From IMG/VR virus record IMGVR_UViG_3300046516_000574, positions 1 through 62,182 of that record: a stretch of 62,182 nt of DNA. One strand, 5' to 3'. Source of the stretch: a virus. The translations under genes were made by a program, and so were the position numbers. How positions within the stretch are numbered: position 1 is the stretch's first letter; each line of letters begins with the position of its first letter. This document shows, piece after piece, positions 3,678-57,475 of the stretch. The notes beneath the pieces are model-generated. The model was not told the origin of the DNA. It worked only from the letters and a program-made list of their open reading frames with translations, and did no database searches.

Positions 3678-6428
3678 ATGGCAGCGGGATTAGGCGCGAT
3701 TCGATTGCCGTCGTCGCCGATCGACGGCATGGACGACATGGCGCCGAAGCCGCTCGGCGGGCGGCAGGGCACCGTCGTCATCGATCTGAACGATGGCGAC
3801 GAGCCTGAGATCCCTGACGTCGATACCGACAAGGGGGTCGAGATCGAAGGCGGCGGGGTCATCGTCCGCATCGGTCCCGCCCTCTACACCCCCAAGGAAA
3901 ACCTCAAGTTCTACGACAATCTCGCCGAGGCTCTGCCGAGAGATCTCCTCGGCGGGATCGCCGACGAGCTGCTGCTCCGCATCGAGGAAGACAACCGCTC
4001 ACGCCAAGAATGGCTCGACACCCGTGCGCGCGGCATCAAGATCATGGGCCTCAAGATCGAGGAGATGCGATCGAGCGGGGCGGACGGCTCGGCGCCGCTG
4101 GAGGGCCAGTCGCAGATCCGCGCCAGCCTGCTGTGTGAGGCGGTCGTACGATTTGGCGCGAACGCCTTCGCCGAGCTGTGCCCGACCGACGGGCCCGCCA
4201 AGGTCACCGAGGACACCGCGGCGGCGCCGACGGAACTCGATGATCTCTCCGATGCGCTGGAAAAGATCCTCAACCACTACCTGACGGTGGTCGACAAGCC
4301 GTGGGTTCCCGACACCGATGCGATGTTGTTACGCATTGGCGTCGACGGTTCGGTGTTCAAGAAAGTCTATCACGACCCGATCCTGCGCCGCCCGATCTCG
4401 CGCGCCGTCTACGGCGAAGACGTCATCATCAACAATTCGGCGACCTCGATCTATGACGCCAAGCGGATCACCCACCGGGTGATGATGGCGCCGTCGACCT
4501 TGCGCCGCATGCAACTGGCTGGCGCCTATCTCGACACCCCGATCGGTGATCCCGGCTGGAAGATGAAGGACGCGCCAGAGCTGCAATCCGAGGAGATCGG
4601 CGGCGTCCGTAAGAACGAAAGCCCAGAGCGCGAGGACCGCGATCACGAGATTTTCGAATGCTATTGCGAACTCGATCTTGAGGGTTTCGAGCACAAGACC
4701 AGAGGCAAGCCTGACGGGCTCGCCCTGCCCTACAAGGTCGCCATCGATCGCGAATCGCGTCAGGTGCTGGAGATTCGGCGCAACTACGACGAAGACGACG
4801 ACATGTGTCTGCCGAAGACATGGTTCGTCCAGTTCCCGTTTATTCGCGGGTTTGGCATTTACGGCATCGGCCTCTCGCACCTCCTCGGCAACATCAGCAA
4901 CGGCATCACCGCGGCGTGGCGCGAGTTCCTCGACGCCGGAATGTTCTCAAACTTCCCCGGCCTCTTGGCGGCGAAGGGGGCTGCGCGGCAGGACAATTCG
5001 GTCATCCGAATACCGCCGGGCGGAATGAAGGAGATCGAAACCGGCGGCATGCCGATTCAGCAAGTCGTCATGGGCATGCCCTATAAGAGCCCTGACGCGG
5101 TGTTTGTCGGCTTTGTCGAGCAACTGAACCAAGAGGGTCAACGGCTCGGCGGAACGGCCGACGTCATGGTCGGGGAAGGGCGACAAGATGCACCTGTGGG
5201 CACGACGCTGGCACTCATCGAGCAAGCCATTAAACCGCTGCTCGCCACCCATAAGCGACTGTGCGCCGCCCAGTCAGATGAGCTTCAACTTCTGGTCGAA
5301 CGATTCCGAGAAGATCCCGAAGCCCTCTACCGGCACCAGAAGCCAAGCGCGGTCGTCGCGTGGGACGACGACCTCGTCATCAAGGCGCTGAACACCTACC
5401 AGATCGTCACCCGCGCCGACCCGAACACCGCCTCGCACCTCCAGCGCATGCTGCGCAACGCGGCGCTCTACATGATGGCTAAGGATGATCCGCCAGCCTT
5501 CGACCTCACCGCGATCCGGCGCACTTGTATCCGAGGCATCGGCTACGCGAATCCCGACCAATTCCTGAACGCGAATCCGCAGCCTGCCCCCGATCCGAAG
5601 GCCGAGGCCGCTGCGACCACCGCGCAGGCCGCGCTTCTTGATGCGCAGGCGAAGATGGGACAGCTCCAACTCGACGCCAAGAACGCGCCGCAAGAGGCTC
5701 AAGCGCGCCAGATGGACGCCATGGCGAAGATTCAGGGCGCCAAGGCAGGCGTGCAGAAGCAGCAGATGGCGACTCACACCGCTGCCTTGCAGGCGCAGAA
5801 CGAGCGGATGAAGCCCGCTATGGAGCAGGCGGGCCGCCAGCACGAGGCGCAGCAGAACGCCGCCGATCGTCAGACCGAGCTGATCAAGGAGCAGATGAAG
5901 CATCAGCACGAGATGCGGCTCGCCGGGATCGAGCAGCAGGGCGATCTCCAGAAGGCGAACCTCGACCATCAGGGCCGTCTGGCCGAGGTTGGAGCTAAAC
6001 ACCAGACCGAGATTGCTAAAGCGGGGATGGACCAGCAGGGGCGGATGCAGGAGGCCCAGTTTGGGCATCAGGCCGCGCTAGCGGAGGGGCAGCAGGCCCA
6101 CCAGACCGCGATGGCGCAAGGGGAGCAACAGCACCACACCGCGCTCGCCACCGGCCAGCAAAAGCACGCCACCACCATGGCGCAGGGCGCGATGCAGCGT
6201 GACACGTCACTGGCGCAGGGCGAGCAGCAGAACGAGGGCAAGCTCCAGCAGATCAAGGCGGCGCCCAAGCCTGCGGCCGGGGCCAAGAAGAAGCCGGGAC
6301 GCGCGACCGGCGGTCGGGTCGATGAAGCCGAAACGCCATTCGGAACGGCACGCCGCGCGCCTGATGGGCACCTCTATGTGGCGCACCCCCACACCGGCCA
6401 GTATTTCCGGGTGAAGAAGGGGGAGTGA
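3678..6428 (+). CDS. Portal protein (P22/T7-like) with long helical C-terminal extension
   Basis: This 916-residue protein is the best candidate for the dodecameric portal through which DNA is packaged and ejected. Residues about 60-620 match the podoviral portal pattern: an N-terminal charged wing, a central region ending in TTLALIEQAIKPL, then VVAWDDDLVIKALNTYQIVTRADP and a following helical segment. From about residue 637 to 870 it becomes a Gln/Ala/His-rich coiled coil with irregular repeats such as AMAQGEQQHHTAL. This is much longer than the P22 barrel and could line the head interior. The last 40 residues carry RATGGRVDEAETPF and a C-terminal cap. The terminase that should partner it is not in the window. 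Confidence 0.9.
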   Translation: MAAGLGAIRLPSSPIDGMDDMAPKPLGGRQGTVVIDLNDGDEPEIPDVDTDKGVEIEGGGVIVRIGPALYTPKENLKFYDNLAEALPRDLLGGIADELLLRIEEDNRSRQEWLDTRARGIKIMGLKIEEMRSSGADGSAPLEGQSQIRASLLCEAVVRFGANAFAELCPTDGPAKVTEDTAAAPTELDDLSDALEKILNHYLTVVDKPWVPDTDAMLLRIGVDGSVFKKVYHDPILRRPISRAVYGEDVIINNSATSIYDAKRITHRVMMAPSTLRRMQLAGAYLDTPIGDPGWKMKDAPELQSEEIGGVRKNESPEREDRDHEIFECYCELDLEGFEHKTRGKPDGLALPYKVAIDRESRQVLEIRRNYDEDDDMCLPKTWFVQFPFIRGFGIYGIGLSHLLGNISNGITAAWREFLDAGMFSNFPGLLAAKGAARQDNSVIRIPPGGMKEIETGGMPIQQVVMGMPYKSPDAVFVGFVEQLNQEGQRLGGTADVMVGEGRQDAPVGTTLALIEQAIKPLLATHKRLCAAQSDELQLLVERFREDPEALYRHQKPSAVVAWDDDLVIKALNTYQIVTRADPNTASHLQRMLRNAALYMMAKDDPPAFDLTAIRRTCIRGIGYANPDQFLNANPQPAPDPKAEAAATTAQAALLDAQAKMGQLQLDAKNAPQEAQARQMDAMAKIQGAKAGVQKQQMATHTAALQAQNERMKPAMEQAGRQHEAQQNAADRQTELIKEQMKHQHEMRLAGIEQQGDLQKANLDHQGRLAEVGAKHQTEIAKAGMDQQGRMQEAQFGHQAALAEGQQAHQTAMAQGEQQHHTALATGQQKHATTMAQGAMQRDTSLAQGEQQNEGKLQQIKAAPKPAAGAKKKPGRATGGRVDEAETPFGTARRAPDGHLYVAHPHTGQYFRVKKGE

Positions 6429-52432: not shown

Positions 52433-53677
52433 ATGGCGACGAGTCAAATATGGACTGACTGGGTCGACCAAGCCCGCACCGCCGACTTCCTCGCCCTCGC
52501 CCACAAGCACGGCGCGCAGCACCTGAAGAAAACCGGCACCGCCGAATGGGTTGGGCCTTGTCCGCGTTGCGGCGGCAAGGATCGGTTCTCAATCAACGTC
52601 AAGAAACGGGTCTGCAACTGTCGGGGCTGCGGCCTTTCTGGCAGCACGATTGATTTTGTCGCGGGTGTGACCGGAAGCGCCTTTATCGAGGCCGTTGAAC
52701 GGATCAACGGCACGCCACGGCCCGACCGCTCACGCGACGAGACGCTGGAGCAGCGCAATTCGCGCCTCGCCACGAACGCCGCCCGCCTCGCGGAGCACCA
52801 GAAGCGCCGGGAAGAGGATTTAGCCGCCGAGGCGGCCAAGGCGCGACACACTGAACAGGCGATCTCCGCCATCCTCCACAAGGATCGGGCGGTATCGATT
52901 TGGGGGACGCACGCCGAGGCCTATCTCAAGGCGCGCGGCCTGACCCCTAACCCTAGGCTCGTCCAAGACATCCGCTACGTCCCCGACTTGGACTACTGGG
53001 GCGCAGGCGATAACGGGACGCGCTCCGTCGTCCACCTCGCCACCCTGCCAGCGATCGTCGCGGTCATCCGAAACTTCGCGCATGACATCATCGGCATCAG
53101 CCAAACCTATCTCGACCCGGTCGAACCGCGTAAATGGATTCCGACCGGATCGCCCAGCAATTCCCCCACGAAAATTAGGGGGGAAAAAAAGGGGGGAATG
53201 ATTCGCCTCGGGAAAACGAGCGACGTGCTGGCGTTGGGCGAAGGGTGGGCCAATTGCCTCGCGTGGCACCAACTCGGCGGGGGCCCGGAGAACGTCACCC
53301 TCGCCGCCGCGATCGACCTCGGCAACCTCGCTGGCGGCGCCACCGGCTCATGGGATCATCCGGTTCTCAAAGATGCCGACGGGTGCAGGATCAAGATAAA
53401 GAACGGCATCCCCGATATGAAGCACCCCGGCGTGATCCTGCCTGCGGAGTGGGGAATCAAGCAGATCATCCTCCTCGCCGACCTCGACAGCGAAACCTTT
53501 TCGACCGCCGCGGCGCTGCGCACCGCTGGCAACCGTTTCCGCGCCATGGGCATCGAGGTCGAGATCGCATGGCCCGATCGCGGCAAGGATTGGAACGATT
53601 GCCTGATCAAAGAGGAGACTGCGGGTGGCGACGCCGGAAATTCTAGAGCACCCGTATCGTACGATAGAGTCGTTTGA
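52433..53677 (+). CDS. DnaG-type primase with zinc ribbon and TOPRIM domain
   Basis: The 414-residue protein has a zinc-binding domain with CPRCGGKDRF (Cys43, Cys46) and CNCRGCG (Cys61/63, Cys66). A coiled linker (residues about 100-145) follows. The catalytic half shows the TOPRIM elements LALGEGWANCLAW (Glu near 270) and IILLADLDSETFS (the Asp-x-Asp pair). This is the layout of phage primases in the DnaG superfamily. The following helicase gene overlaps its end by 53 bases, giving an operon equivalent of a two-part primase-helicase. Confidence 0.85.
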   Translation: MATSQIWTDWVDQARTADFLALAHKHGAQHLKKTGTAEWVGPCPRCGGKDRFSINVKKRVCNCRGCGLSGSTIDFVAGVTGSAFIEAVERINGTPRPDRSRDETLEQRNSRLATNAARLAEHQKRREEDLAAEAAKARHTEQAISAILHKDRAVSIWGTHAEAYLKARGLTPNPRLVQDIRYVPDLDYWGAGDNGTRSVVHLATLPAIVAVIRNFAHDIIGISQTYLDPVEPRKWIPTGSPSNSPTKIRGEKKGGMIRLGKTSDVLALGEGWANCLAWHQLGGGPENVTLAAAIDLGNLAGGATGSWDHPVLKDADGCRIKIKNGIPDMKHPGVILPAEWGIKQIILLADLDSETFSTAAALRTAGNRFRAMGIEVEIAWPDRGKDWNDCLIKEETAGGDAGNSRAPVSYDRVV

Positions 53678-54938
53678 CGATTTCCTGAAGCGCACCGATT
53701 GGATTTGGACCCCGGCGATCAAAAGCCGCTTCGGGGCGATCGCGCTCGACCAGTTGGACGATCACGGCAAGCAGTTCGACTGGCTGGTCAGCGGCTGGCT
53801 GTCGAGCGGCGACCGCTCGGTGCTGGCGGGCGACAGCAAGGCGGGCAAGTCATTCTTCGCGCTGGAGTTGGCCCTGTGCATCGCATTCCGCCGCAACCTG
53901 TTCGGCCTCCCGACCAAAAATGGCGGCGTTGTCTATCAAGTCGGCGAGGGCCTGCTCGGCTTCAAAAAACGCTTGCGGGCGTGGCGCGCCTATTACGGCG
54001 CCGATTTCGCCCGCGAGGTGCCGTTCCGGCTGCTCCAAAGGGGGATCGATATTTACAGAGATTTTGACCAAGTCGACGCCTTGATCGAGGAGATTCAGGC
54101 CCACGCCGCCTCGTTCGATGGCCCCTTACGGCTGGTCGTGATCGACACGCTCGCCAAGGCCTCAGTCGGCGCCGACGAAAACGCCGTCAAGGACATGGGG
54201 GTGGTCATGAGGAACGTCGAGAGAATTAACGAGCGGACGGGCGCGCACGTCATGTTGGTGCATCACCTCACCAAGGCGGGCGTCGTGCGCGGTTCGACCT
54301 CCGTCTACGCGGGCGTCGATCAGGTGCTGATCCTGACCCGCGACGAGGCGACGAAGCTCCGCACTTTGACCATCGACAAGCAGAAGGACGACGAGGAGGG
54401 CGTCAGCCTCAGTTTCGAACTGGAGCGGGTCGAACTGGGCCACGACGAAGATGGCCGACAGGTGACCTCATGCGTGTGCATAGCGGTGAGCGAACGCGAC
54501 CGCGTGCGCCGCGAAGAGGAGCTGCGCGGCATGCGGATGAGCGTTGCGCTGGAGGTGTTCGTGAAGGCCTTCTTTGAGGCTGAGAAGCGCTACGGCATGC
54601 CGGTGCCTCCCCAGCTCGATGTGCCGCCGAATGTGCGCTCAGTGGCCGCATGGGACGACGTAAAGCGGGTCTACGGCGACATGGCGCCGACTGACGCTCT
54701 GACCCGCGAGGAACGCACGACCGAGGAGCAGGAGAAGGCGACGACGAAGCACTATGAGATGTTGAAGTCGCGCCTGCGCCGGTTGCGCGAGGAGGCGATC
54801 GCTCACAACATCCTGAAGTTCGACACGCTGGAGAACAAGCCGCTGTGCTGGTGGACGGGTCGACCGTTGAGGGCCTTCCCGCACACGCAGCCGCCGAAGA
54901 AAGAGGATATCGACCCGGCCTACGCGGTTGAGTTTTGA
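53625..54938 (+). CDS. RepA-like hexameric helicase (RecA-fold ATPase)
   Basis: A GTG start inside the primase gene gives a 437-residue protein. After an N-terminal segment the RecA fold is clear: VLAGDSKAGKSFFALELALC (Walker A, about residues 65-84), LVVIDTLAKASVG (Walker B), MLVHHLTKAGVVRGSTSVYA (motif 3) and LILTRDEATKLRTL. This is the AAA_25/RepA type found in phages and plasmids that load on the primed fork. The C-terminal 150 residues (SVALEVFVKAFFEAEKRYGM) form a helical/winged-helix extension. The gene end overlaps a convergent leftward gene by 19 bases. Confidence 0.8.
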   Translation: MATPEILEHPYRTIESFDDFLKRTDWIWTPAIKSRFGAIALDQLDDHGKQFDWLVSGWLSSGDRSVLAGDSKAGKSFFALELALCIAFRRNLFGLPTKNGGVVYQVGEGLLGFKKRLRAWRAYYGADFAREVPFRLLQRGIDIYRDFDQVDALIEEIQAHAASFDGPLRLVVIDTLAKASVGADENAVKDMGVVMRNVERINERTGAHVMLVHHLTKAGVVRGSTSVYAGVDQVLILTRDEATKLRTLTIDKQKDDEEGVSLSFELERVELGHDEDGRQVTSCVCIAVSERDRVRREEELRGMRMSVALEVFVKAFFEAEKRYGMPVPPQLDVPPNVRSVAAWDDVKRVYGDMAPTDALTREERTTEEQEKATTKHYEMLKSRLRRLREEAIAHNILKFDTLENKPLCWWTGRPLRAFPHTQPPKKEDIDPAYAVEF

Positions 54939-55561
54939 TCCCCCCCTATATCATCATCGACATCAAGCACGGCTTGGATGCTGGGGTTCGGAAGTATGGC
55001 CGTAGTCGCGACAGCCTTGGCTATCTCCCGCTGCACGACGGCAAACTCCTTTGTCAGCTCCTGCGATTCATAATCAATCCTAGTAGCGTATCTCTCAATT
55101 TCCCTGTTCAGGGTCGAGATTCTTATCTGCAATGCCATTGGTAGCGAACCGACATCCATGCTGTTATGGAGACTGTCCAACAAACCTTTCTTTGTCTTGA
55201 CAAGGCTTTTGATTTCGCCGGGGAGCTTGTTGGCTTTCAAGGCGAACGCTTCGCTGGTGCGCGCAATGCTGTAGCTCAAGCCGTGCGCCTTGACCCCAAT
55301 ATGGAACGGCTCTTTTTTCTCAGCCGCCCATAGCGGGCTGGATGCTGTGATGTTGATCTTGCCGCGCAGGATATTGCGATCTGTGTTGCGTGTATCTCGG
55401 CTCACGCGAGCAGGGAGAAACCCTGCCTTTTCGCCCCAATCGTCAAATTGGGCGAGCGTGATGACGGTTGAGCCCATCGGATCGGCGGGGAGCGGAAATT
55501 GAGCGATAAAAGCGCCTGTCTCTAACAGACCGGCCTTGCCTTTGCGCATCGTCACAAACAT
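54920..55561 (-). CDS. Hypothetical protein of the less GC-rich island
   Basis: ATG 55561 is preferred because AAGGAAAAC lies just upstream; ATG 55600 would add 13 residues. The 213-residue product has a beta N-terminal half (GLLETGAFIAQFPLPADPMG, ILRGKINITASSPLW) and a helical middle (IARTSEAFALKANKLPGEIK, LNREIERYATRIDYESQELT). It ends in an acidic tail. Codon use is visibly less GC-rich than the helicase next to it. No family is recognised. It is adjacent to the ParB-domain gene and may act with it. Confidence 0.55.
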   Translation of the reverse strand: MFVTMRKGKAGLLETGAFIAQFPLPADPMGSTVITLAQFDDWGEKAGFLPARVSRDTRNTDRNILRGKINITASSPLWAAEKKEPFHIGVKAHGLSYSIARTSEAFALKANKLPGEIKSLVKTKKGLLDSLHNSMDVGSLPMALQIRISTLNREIERYATRIDYESQELTKEFAVVQREIAKAVATTAILPNPSIQAVLDVDDDIGGDQNSTA

Positions 55562-55617
55562 GATAGGTTTTCCTTCTTCGTAGCGGCTCTCCAGAGCCAT
55601 TGCGTTGAACCTTGCGG

Positions 55618-55641
55618 CCTTCAGGATTTATTTTCTGAAGG
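55618..55641. promoter_or_regulatory. Symmetric hairpin between two leftward genes
   Basis: CCTTCAG (55618-55624) and CTGAAGG (55635-55641) pair perfectly around an A/T-rich 10-base loop. It lies in the 90-base gap after the ParB-domain gene. There is no U-tract on either side, so it could be an RNA processing site, a weak terminator or a protein-binding dyad. Confidence 0.3.
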
Positions 55642-55652
55642 TCGCTTGCTGT

Positions 55653-57197
55653 TTACACTCCAAATTTCTTCTTCATGGCGCTAAAGGTTTCAAGCATCTC
55701 GCCGATGCGCCGAATTGCGTCGAGATCGATCGGGAACAAGGCCTTATCGTAAGGCCATGTATTCTGTTCCTCGATTATTGTATTGAATGCCGCTTCTGCC
55801 TGTTGCAGGCCGCGCCGAATATCTGTCCAATACTTATTGACGCGGTCTGTGTGACTGCGACGCAAAAGCCGTTCTTTCTCCTCCTTTTCTATCCCCCGTT
55901 GAATGCCAAGCCCTTTTTGGATCTCTAACCCAACGAGACTGCTTACCCATTGGGCGGATGCTTCTCGATCATTGAGTTTCTCCTCTCGATCGATCTCGGC
56001 TCGGATACGTTTTGCCAAGGCTAACTGCTGCTTTACCGGCACGACGTACCGGCCGCCCTCAGACAGTACCGCTCGGCGAAAGGCTTCCGCCTGCGCTAAC
56101 AATCTGAATGCGGTGACGCACTGCGGATCATAAACTTTATCGAGTTCCTTCTGCGCTTTAACGGCTTCCGCCTCCTTCTGGCGCCGTTCATTTTCGGCCT
56201 TCTCCTTAGCTTGGCGTTCTTCTTTTGCTTTACGGGCTTTGGCGCGCTCTTTTTCGGCGCGTTCCTGTTCGGCTTTGTGGGCGGCGGCGGCTCGCTTGCG
56301 GGCAGCTTCAGCCTCTTTATTGCGGGCTTCAGCTTCGCGTGCGGCTTGTTGCGCCTTGGTCTTGCGGGCGCCTTCAGCCGCTGCTGCGTCAGCTTTTGCC
56401 CTCTCGGCTTTCTCGCGTGCGATTTGAGCTGCGTGTTCTTTTCGCGCTCGCTCTTCTTCGGCGCGAGCTTCAGCCGCAGCGCGCTTAGCCTCGGCTTGCT
56501 CCGCTTCCTTTTCCAAGCGAACCTCTTCAGCGCGTCTGGCAGCGTCTCGCTCGGCGCGGATTGTTTCGACGTCTGCAAGAGCTTCCGAAACAATGACGCC
56601 CATAACGCCGGTCTGCTTCAGGGTGGCGAGCGCATCACCGATCTTGGTCGAAGAGACGATCTCCGCTTTTTTATTTTCAGCCTTGCGCTCGGTTCGCTTT
56701 GACTTGTCAAAGCCATTAATCGCGCGATAAATTGTGTCTTCGCCGGGGCCGTGTGCGGCAATTATGGCCTGCGTCCGGGCCAGCGTCCGATTGTCGTCGG
56801 TTGGCTCCAGAAATCTGGAGCTAACGTCGTCTCCCAGTAAGATCGCTCGCGACACGATGCGAGCATGGGCGGCGACGCTGTCCTCAGTGGCGCCCGAGTT
56901 GGTGCCCCGCTGGGTCATGTTCTCCATCGTCATAATGGCGACCATGTCGTCGTCGTCATAGTCATCGATGACGGCTTCGATTTCGGTCAGGCCTTCGCGC
57001 TTGGCGGCTTCAAGGCGGTGGTGGCCAGCGGCTAGCTGATACCCCTTCCCGCGAGGCGAAGGGCGTGCTGTAACCCCCGAAAAGAACCCAAGCTCATCGA
57101 TTGACTGACGCAATCGCTGAACCTGTTCTTCGTCTACGGGATAGATCGTGAAATTACGAAACGGGTTCGGCTGGATATCCTTTATCCGTATTTTCAT
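55653..57197 (-). CDS. ParB-domain protein with TolA-like coiled coil
   Basis: ATG 57197 has GGAG eight bases upstream; a GTG 9 bases earlier has no room for a ribosome site. Residues 1-100 are a ParB/Srx-type domain: IKDIQPNPFRNFTIYPVDEE, then GKGYQLAAGHHRLEAAKREG and MVAIMTMENMTQRG. In this superfamily the GHHR motif binds nucleotide or substrate. Residues 100-180 could hold a helix-turn-helix (TQAIIAAHGPGEDTIYRAIN). Residues 215-365 form a highly charged Ala/Glu/Lys/Arg coiled coil like TolA, followed by a helical C-terminal domain. It could be a DNA-binding segregation, transcription or anti-defence factor. Confidence 0.7.
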   Translation of the reverse strand: MKIRIKDIQPNPFRNFTIYPVDEEQVQRLRQSIDELGFFSGVTARPSPRGKGYQLAAGHHRLEAAKREGLTEIEAVIDDYDDDDMVAIMTMENMTQRGTNSGATEDSVAAHARIVSRAILLGDDVSSRFLEPTDDNRTLARTQAIIAAHGPGEDTIYRAINGFDKSKRTERKAENKKAEIVSSTKIGDALATLKQTGVMGVIVSEALADVETIRAERDAARRAEEVRLEKEAEQAEAKRAAAEARAEEERARKEHAAQIAREKAERAKADAAAAEGARKTKAQQAAREAEARNKEAEAARKRAAAAHKAEQERAEKERAKARKAKEERQAKEKAENERRQKEAEAVKAQKELDKVYDPQCVTAFRLLAQAEAFRRAVLSEGGRYVVPVKQQLALAKRIRAEIDREEKLNDREASAQWVSSLVGLEIQKGLGIQRGIEKEEKERLLRRSHTDRVNKYWTDIRRGLQQAEAAFNTIIEEQNTWPYDKALFPIDLDAIRRIGEMLETFSAMKKKFGV

Positions 57198-57277
57198 ATC
57201 AGTCACTCCAGATTGCTCCTCTGTAAAAGAAGAGATTGGTTCGTTGAACGGTTAACGTATGAAGCGGGTTGTGCGAC

Positions 57278-57475
57278 ATGTCAATGGACCCCCTCCACCG
57301 CGCCGCGATCAGCGCCGGTCAGAAGCGCGCTTGGGCCGATCCTGACATCCGCGCTCGCCGCAGTGCAGCAATCGCCAAGGCTCTTGACGACCCGCTCTTG
57401 CGCGCGGCCATGTCGAGGAAGAAGATCAAGCCGGGTTCCCGCCGCTCAAGGGCAGGAGAATATGATGGCGATTGA
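57278..57475 (+). CDS. Small basic protein with NUMOD-like helical repeats
   Basis: ATG 57278 opens a 65-residue, Arg/Lys-rich protein. The segments RAAISAGQKRAWADPDIRAR and RSAAIAKALDDPLLRAAMSR are two copies of a W/L-x-DPxxRAxxS helix found in nuclease-associated modular DNA-binding domains and in small phage proteins. There is no nuclease domain here. Its 3' end overlaps the endolysin start by 11 bases, so it precedes the lysis cassette. It could bind DNA non-specifically. Confidence 0.5.
   Translation: MSMDPLHRAAISAGQKRAWADPDIRARRSAAIAKALDDPLLRAAMSRKKIKPGSRRSRAGEYDGD

Follow-up and report, generated by a model that had tools for sequence, protein, structure and literature searches.

A ParB-fold protein and its adjacent partner form a mobile, co-inherited cassette in diverse phages

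The window analyzed here is a virus record of 62,182 bases (IMG/VR record IMGVR_UViG_3300046516_000574), in which two adjacent leftward open reading frames (ORFs) encode a 517-residue ParB-fold protein (55653-57206, minus strand) and a smaller protein, hereafter the partner (54920-55600, minus strand, 226 amino acids in the ORF list). We found that the two make up a single mobile cassette, inherited together, whose genes lie side by side in many otherwise unrelated phages. The recurrence of the pair is what is new; the literature searches listed no paper describing the pair, as judged by title or by the start of the abstract. It should be noted that passages of a 2025 survey describe orphan ParB-fold proteins as common across phages, binding cytidine, adenosine or guanosine triphosphate (CTP, ATP or GTP), with functions largely uncharacterized (PMC12704722).

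The family was opened by a DNA pattern combining the two boxes GHHR and ENxTQRG, the only search that did so; it returned nine loci (loci are denoted by L numbers), all of which encode relatives. Two of them, L078 and L082, carry the whole pair, with 60% identity to the window in the ParB protein and 62% in the partner; the ParB identity of 60% extends over the full length in L078/L093. In a further record, G808 (L089/L095), the ParB protein is 47% identical and the partner is matched with an E-value of 9.8e-22. A subsequent search with an alignment retrieved 68 viral loci, all of which contain a ParB-type ORF. Among the 4,787 ORFs of these loci, a profile built from three partners (the window, L093 and L095) had eight matches at E<=1, including five further loci at E<=5.5e-5, and every one of the eight was the next or next-but-one ORF downstream of the ParB gene. 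The iterated profile recovered the partner in 18 of the 68 loci (16 non-redundant), always as the next or next-but-one ORF and nowhere else in the 4,787, and a reversed-profile control had no matches in the same ORF set. In addition, distances between ParB N-domains and distances between partners are correlated over 17 pairs (r = 0.65, a value reached by 0 of 5,000 permutations), the duplicates L094 and L104 (100% and 97.8%) having been omitted. The view of the two genes as a pair, taken by an earlier sequence-only reading of this DNA, is thus borne out by the adjacency and by the correlated distances.

Matches at E<1e-3 were taken into the iteration, so that the distant members (L098, L102, L106, L109, L114, L123 and others) owe their place partly to it; E-values obtained after inclusion are inflated. 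Two of the seeds, L107 and L145, came in at 0.0012 and 0.0057, and a profile made without them finds both, at 3e-7 and 4e-10, respectively. The downstream ORF of L100 scored 0.0026 in the first round, later dropped out and was not counted. A small ORF of 64 or 72 amino acids lies between the ParB gene and the partner gene at L096:7497-7691 and L107:7500-7718. A second downstream family was seen in 19 loci with coil-less GHHR ParB proteins (L113, L115-L119, L121, L124, L127-L130, L132, L141-L143, L148, L152 and L153), and it is perhaps a second type of partner. In 13 of the 68 loci there was no qualifying downstream ORF.

Searches with single sequences were unsuccessful. With either protein, they found no full relative; tblastn with the window proteins in phages and plasmids gave only three weak matches to the ParB domain, and tblastn with the relatives' proteins only one. 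Two marginal matches were obtained in 385 whole genomes at the class level. Among 397 whole genomes at the order level, six encode a canonical-looking ParB of about 300 amino acids and none has the partner. Two matches of the partner profile in 357 genomes were discarded, as one lies in ribosomal protein L9 (by eye) and the other contains two internal stops.

A close relative has an empty site. L003 and L004 encode an ATPase 84% identical to that of the window, and the pair is absent at the site; these two are probably one phage sampled in two metagenomes, because their junctions are alike at 200 of 201 bases. In both, a small ORF begins within the end of the ATPase gene, overlapping its stop, and the endolysin gene is next. 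The window has a similar small ORF (57278-57475), displaced by about 2.3 kb because the two leftward genes intervene. In L002, the closest relative by the ATPase (86%), this slot is occupied by another leftward gene (L002:9314-10393, minus strand, cut by the contig end), which matches the ParB-like PHROGs 12047 (E = 1.3e-9) and 4715 (E = 1.4e-6) and also PHROG 21315; it has no Pfam match, and hhalign aligns it to our ParB alignment at E = 0.14 only. Other leftward genes are present in the slot of L005. The slot is thus variable and holds a ParB-like gene at least twice, and the same pair occurs in phages without the window's ATPase gene. The sequence-only reading had suggested a recently acquired pair and, as a check, a look for relatives lacking it; such relatives were found, the pair is not conserved and syntenic in all of them, and acquisition is supported.

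The same reading had called the region a less GC-rich island, and this agrees with the GC content at third codon positions (GC3). Among 39 ORFs hand-picked from the ORF list (mean 0.745, standard deviation 0.062), the ParB gene (0.590) and the partner gene (0.628) have the lowest and third lowest values, and three other ORFs of the window are nearly as low (0.623, 0.641 and 0.650). In L088, the values are 0.645 for the ParB gene and 0.558 for the partner gene, compared to 0.607-0.880 for ten neighbors. As GC3 is low in the L088 pair too, it may partly be a property of the cassette.

The ParB-fold protein (55653-57206, minus strand) has a GTG start, with an in-frame ATG at 57197. It matches the Pfam domain ParB_N (PF02195) at E = 1.6e-12, with 47.8 bits against a cut-off of 26.3, and ParB_N is found at E<=0.01 in 26 of 27 members of a hand-chosen alignment (the window and 26 of the 68 loci). 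It also matches PHROG 3264 (E = 8.3e-16) and PHROG 4715 (E = 1.2e-12), the latter over residues 5-432, and 22 of the 27 members match PHROG 4715. The AlphaFold2 (AF2) model of the protein has a mean predicted local distance difference test score (pLDDT) of 88.4. Its N-domain of the ParB/Srx type (residues 1-100; 56907-57206, minus strand) is similar to ParB in the complex with cytidine diphosphate (6sdk), with a VIA Z score of 15.8 and a root-mean-square deviation (rmsd) of 1.6 over 95 residues. Longer matches extend from the N-domain to residue 438, namely to KorB as bound to KorA (8qa9_A, Z 13.5, 193 residues aligned, rmsd 6.2) and to pNOB8 ParB (5k5d_A, Z 12.0, 213 aligned, rmsd 5.2). The motifs of the CTP clamp are present: box II, GxxR, as GHHR (residues 61-64) and box III, EN, as a canonical-looking ENMTQR (residues 95-100), of which E95 and N96 are invariant in 27 of 27 members. 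The proposed ParB/Srx-type N-domain with a GHHR motif is therefore confirmed by a Pfam score above the cut-off, by the structural match and by the position of the motif. The conservation of GHHR is partly selected, since this motif formed part of the search patterns that collected the family.

The partner probably begins later than the mechanical ORF start at 55600: conservation of the start in the alignment with L093 suggests that the real start is 55561 (MFVT...), which gives a protein of 213 amino acids (54920-55561, minus strand), and a GAAGGA-like ribosome site precedes this start. The AF2 model of a 216-residue version (mean pLDDT 82.2) consists of a helix, a strand, helices and two strands in winged-helix order, followed by two long helices; the partner is thus predicted to be a winged helix (approximately residues 15-104 of this model) with a helical tail. 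The window partner has no family match in Pfam, PHROGs or PADLOC, and in NCBIfam the sole match is FtsL at 0.14. In a hand-chosen alignment of 17 partners, 16 had no Pfam match and 16 no PHROG match at E<=0.01; the two matches seen were to HTH_Tnp_Tc5 (Pfam, 0.0011) and to phrog_12106 (PHROGs, 0.0068).

Between its N-domain and its C-terminus, the ParB-fold protein contains the charged coil of about 150 residues noted earlier, which we located at approximately residues 205-356 (56139-56594, minus strand). This segment, rich in Ala, Glu, Lys and Arg, is modeled as two helices (201-276 and 287-356) interrupted at the low-confidence residues 276-286, which include the sole glycine of the coil (279). 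The only coil glycine of L093 is at the same place, and the block around the break is among the best conserved parts of the coil in the comparison with L093 (identity 0.80/0.73, similar to that of the base, residues 331-360, and compared to 0.27-0.53 in the arms). The two predicted helices and the conserved glycine break suggest that the coil probably folds back as a hairpin arm. By composition, a coil of 28-162 residues is present in 28 of the 68 loci and undetectable in 40. A role as a ruler was rejected because the length varies from none to 162 residues, and the earlier view that the coupling to a long rod is unusual is not supported; moreover, the model splits this rod in two. The C-terminal helical region (residues 357-517; 55656-56138, minus strand) is conserved in members with or without the coil. 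A conserved region is indeed present where a new C-terminal domain had been proposed, and the family has it in common.

We consider that the pair may be a partner-controlled, nucleoside triphosphate (NTP)-switched DNA clamp that acts on phage DNA in a manner similar to KorB-KorA, and we assign this reading a rough probability of 0.42. Under this model, the 517-residue protein would be an orphan ParB fold, in which the N-domain probably binds CTP or another NTP, the helical middle part would be DNA-binding-like, and the variable, putative hairpin arm would be followed by the conserved C-terminal helices; the small protein would be a winged-helix DNA binder with a helical tail. The most likely target of both would be the DNA of the phage itself, at an early stage of infection. 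There, the partner would mark a site and, possibly through contact with the ParB-like clamp, would load, lock or stop it, as KorA does for KorB, and the outcome would be control of phage genes or organization of the replicating DNA. Consistent with this model, the pair in L088 ends a leftward run of early type with an SNF2 helicase gene and a primase-like gene (by eye), and faces virion-type genes.

Known systems offer partial parallels. KorB-KorA of plasmid RK2, in the passages of PMC11790492 consulted, likewise belongs to a mobile element and joins a ParB-fold clamp to a small protein that binds DNA, and KorB in the complex with KorA is among the better long structural matches. The phage pair differs in its long coil, in the GHHR box II, in being encoded by two neighboring genes of a phage and in the partner, which no profile searched names as KorA (a family outside the listings of the fold searches is possible). 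The orphan phage ParB-CTPase folds of the 2025 survey resemble the window protein in being orphans on mobile elements, in having no ParA-binding motif and in having extra regions outside Pfam; the window protein differs in retaining box III, which such orphans often do not have, according to passages of the survey. The main text of the survey does not contain the words "coiled" or "GHHR", and no winged-helix partner gene is described in those passages (PMC12704722). PHROG 4715, "ParB-like partition protein", is a phage cluster that says nothing of a partner.

Several observations weigh against the clamp model. The fold matches of the partner are weak (best Foldseek E = 0.16), and its residues 11-110 align to a Rep protein with a Z score of 7.1, which is below the level that the tool treats as trustworthy. 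For KorB, the rmsd of the longer structural matches is high, and the hairpin arm is read from predicted secondary structure. Box II reads GHHR instead of GERR, which may mean that hydrolysis is lost or that the nucleotide is other than CTP. Finally, no partner match was obtained in 50 of the 68 loci, and 19 of these 50 have the different common downstream family mentioned above (159 amino acids in the member shown). A broader version would make such phage systems a widespread, unrecognized class of two-component DNA clamps. In it, an NTP-switched ParB-fold protein with an SMC-like hairpin arm of adjustable length would be loaded or locked at particular sites by its own winged-helix partner, and a conserved structured leader, recognized by one of the proteins, would govern both genes. 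This version, an orphan-ParB counterpart of KorB-KorA or of SMC loading that would be specialized for replicating phage genomes, is in our view speculative and rather doubtful.

The main rival is a guide for DNA modification or packaging, in which the ParB protein would direct a methyltransferase or a terminase to sites on phage DNA; we consider it unlikely. It draws on a methyltransferase-like gene after the pair in L106, a terminase-like gene near it in L109 and ParB-methylase-like genes downstream in L114 and L123, all named by eye, and on the precedent of the phage ParB-Tls locus (passages of PMC6536676), which also involves a phage ParB-like protein and which some members resemble in these neighbors. 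The copies in the window and in L088 differ from that locus in being sited elsewhere, next to replication/helicase and lysis or virion genes, and no methyltransferase was found among the scanned window proteins or, by eye, in L088.

A defense or anti-defense cassette (moron) that acts on host or competitor systems, and not on phage DNA, would fit the low GC3, the opposite strand and the empty site in a relative. PADLOC, however, reported nothing beyond MTase_II, matched via the ParB domain at 2.2e-5, and JetC at a marginal 0.045 over the coil and the C-terminal part, and in diverse phages the pair is again found next to genes of the early replication type; this proposal of the sequence-only reading is not supported and appears quite improbable. 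Somewhat more improbable is an NTP-regulated DNase of the DdrB/Osa type that would nick or degrade host or rival DNA. Some phage and plasmid ParB/Srx domains are DNases according to reports or predictions (passages of PMC5512222), and some of the PHROG matches are named "ParB-like partition nuclease"; conversely, DdrB-like domains are described there among late virion genes, whereas our pair is often in early-type regions, it is co-inherited with a DNA-binding-like partner, and no nuclease domain other than ParB/Srx was found in the pair by Pfam and NCBIfam scans. A ParABS partition system of a phage-plasmid, suggested by the ParB_N domain and by the PHROG name "ParB-like partition protein", is very improbable and was rejected, given that no ParA-type Walker A motif (KGGxGK[TS][TS]-type, regular expression, six frames) was found in the window or in the examined loci from L075 on, that the ParA-binding motif [LFI]G[KR]G[LFI] was found in 0 of 27 aligned members, that the window has no match within four mismatches to the canonical parS 16-mer (a divergent parS is possible) and that canonical ParB TIGR00180 scored 50.6 bits, below its cut-off of 58.45. 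The related models Noc TIGR04285 (50.4 bits, cut-off 315) and RepB TIGR03454 (33.6 bits, cut-off 201.5) likewise remained below their cut-offs.

The leaders of the two genes were analyzed as well. The window and L093 share an intergenic leader of 90-odd nucleotides with nearly identical outer sequence. A 32-nucleotide inverted repeat in the spacer between the genes (55614-55645, minus strand), whose distance from the ParB stop is almost unchanged in L093, has four pairs changed on both sides and none broken, and a second small hairpin in the partner leader (55585-55598, minus strand) has one pair changed on both sides and none broken; together, the two comprise 15 pairs, all intact in both sequences. 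Sliding the partner columns destroys the signal, and 17 of 500 shuffles were as good, a control of little power since the covariation rests on two distinct sequences. The leader hairpin thus appears to be conserved by compensatory changes. The 32-nucleotide hairpin scored as terminator-like on the plus strand, i.e., for transcription opposing the pair, and that of L093 is likewise terminator-like on the opposite strand; a terminator role is possible. An Rfam-known leader was rejected (best match 20.8 bits, gathering score 153), and RNA folding of the ParB-gene leader was no better than that of shuffles.

A motif, GTTCAACGMA, which was defined after viewing these leaders, has two copies in the window (expected 0.20) and two in 19.9 kb of L088 (expected 0.09), one before each gene of the pair in both cases. 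The window copies are GTTCAACGCA before the partner gene (55601-55610, minus strand), at the same place in L088, and GTTCAACGAA before the ParB gene (57240-57249, minus strand), also in L088. The motif was not found in more distant pair loci, and the leader pattern had no copies in viral contigs beyond L078 and L082. Upstream of the ParB gene, the imperfect 16-bp palindrome CGTTGAACGGTTAACG (57242-57257, two mismatched pairs) is a possible operator. A promoter scan of this region of the window found no consensus promoter, and a TTGACA-N17 promoter read by eye was not kept.

Another palindrome, TCGTACGA, occurs in ten copies in the window, at 4144, 8616, 20149, 22479, 27968, 30340, 41201, 46548, 50972 and 53657, compared to 0.59 expected, and none of 100 shuffles reached ten; two of the copies share cgtaTCGTACGATnGAGTCG. 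It is present in fragments of the close relatives L002-L006, of which L003-L006 are without the pair at the site, but it does not occur in 19.9 kb of the pair-carrying L088 or in the more distant relatives examined. Therefore, TCGTACGA is a lineage-specific signal that follows the phage lineage rather than the pair; it was rejected as the site of the pair, and the suggestion of genome spacing through it is contradicted.

As to the setting, relatives of portal, tail-fiber and ejection proteins were recognized in the window, along with a primase, an AAA_25 ATPase, a RecE-like exonuclease, an SNF2 helicase and an endolysin. The pair is flanked by the rightward AAA_25/RepA-like ATPase gene (53625-54938, Pfam E = 3.4e-36) and by the rightward endolysin gene (PHROG 181, E = 4.1e-25); the ORF list thus confirms the place and strand proposed earlier for two leftward genes between the helicase/ATPase side and the lysis gene. 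The small ORF 57278-57475 (plus strand) contains AWADPDIRARRSAAIAKALDDP repeats, and the overlapping ORF 57269-57475 has no PHROG match. The host is likely a member of the Hyphomicrobiales, because the better genome matches of the window ATPase gene are mostly from this order.

Since the adjacent partner is conserved and its family undescribed, it provides a concrete target for the study of orphan ParB function. Seventeen loci (the window and 16 non-redundant ones) offer both proteins, and coils that range from none to about 160 residues represent natural variants. If the ParB-fold protein is indeed a clamp controlled by a site-specific partner, a KorB-KorA-like mechanism would be extended from plasmids to phages, and this branch of the ParB fold would gain its first biochemical role.

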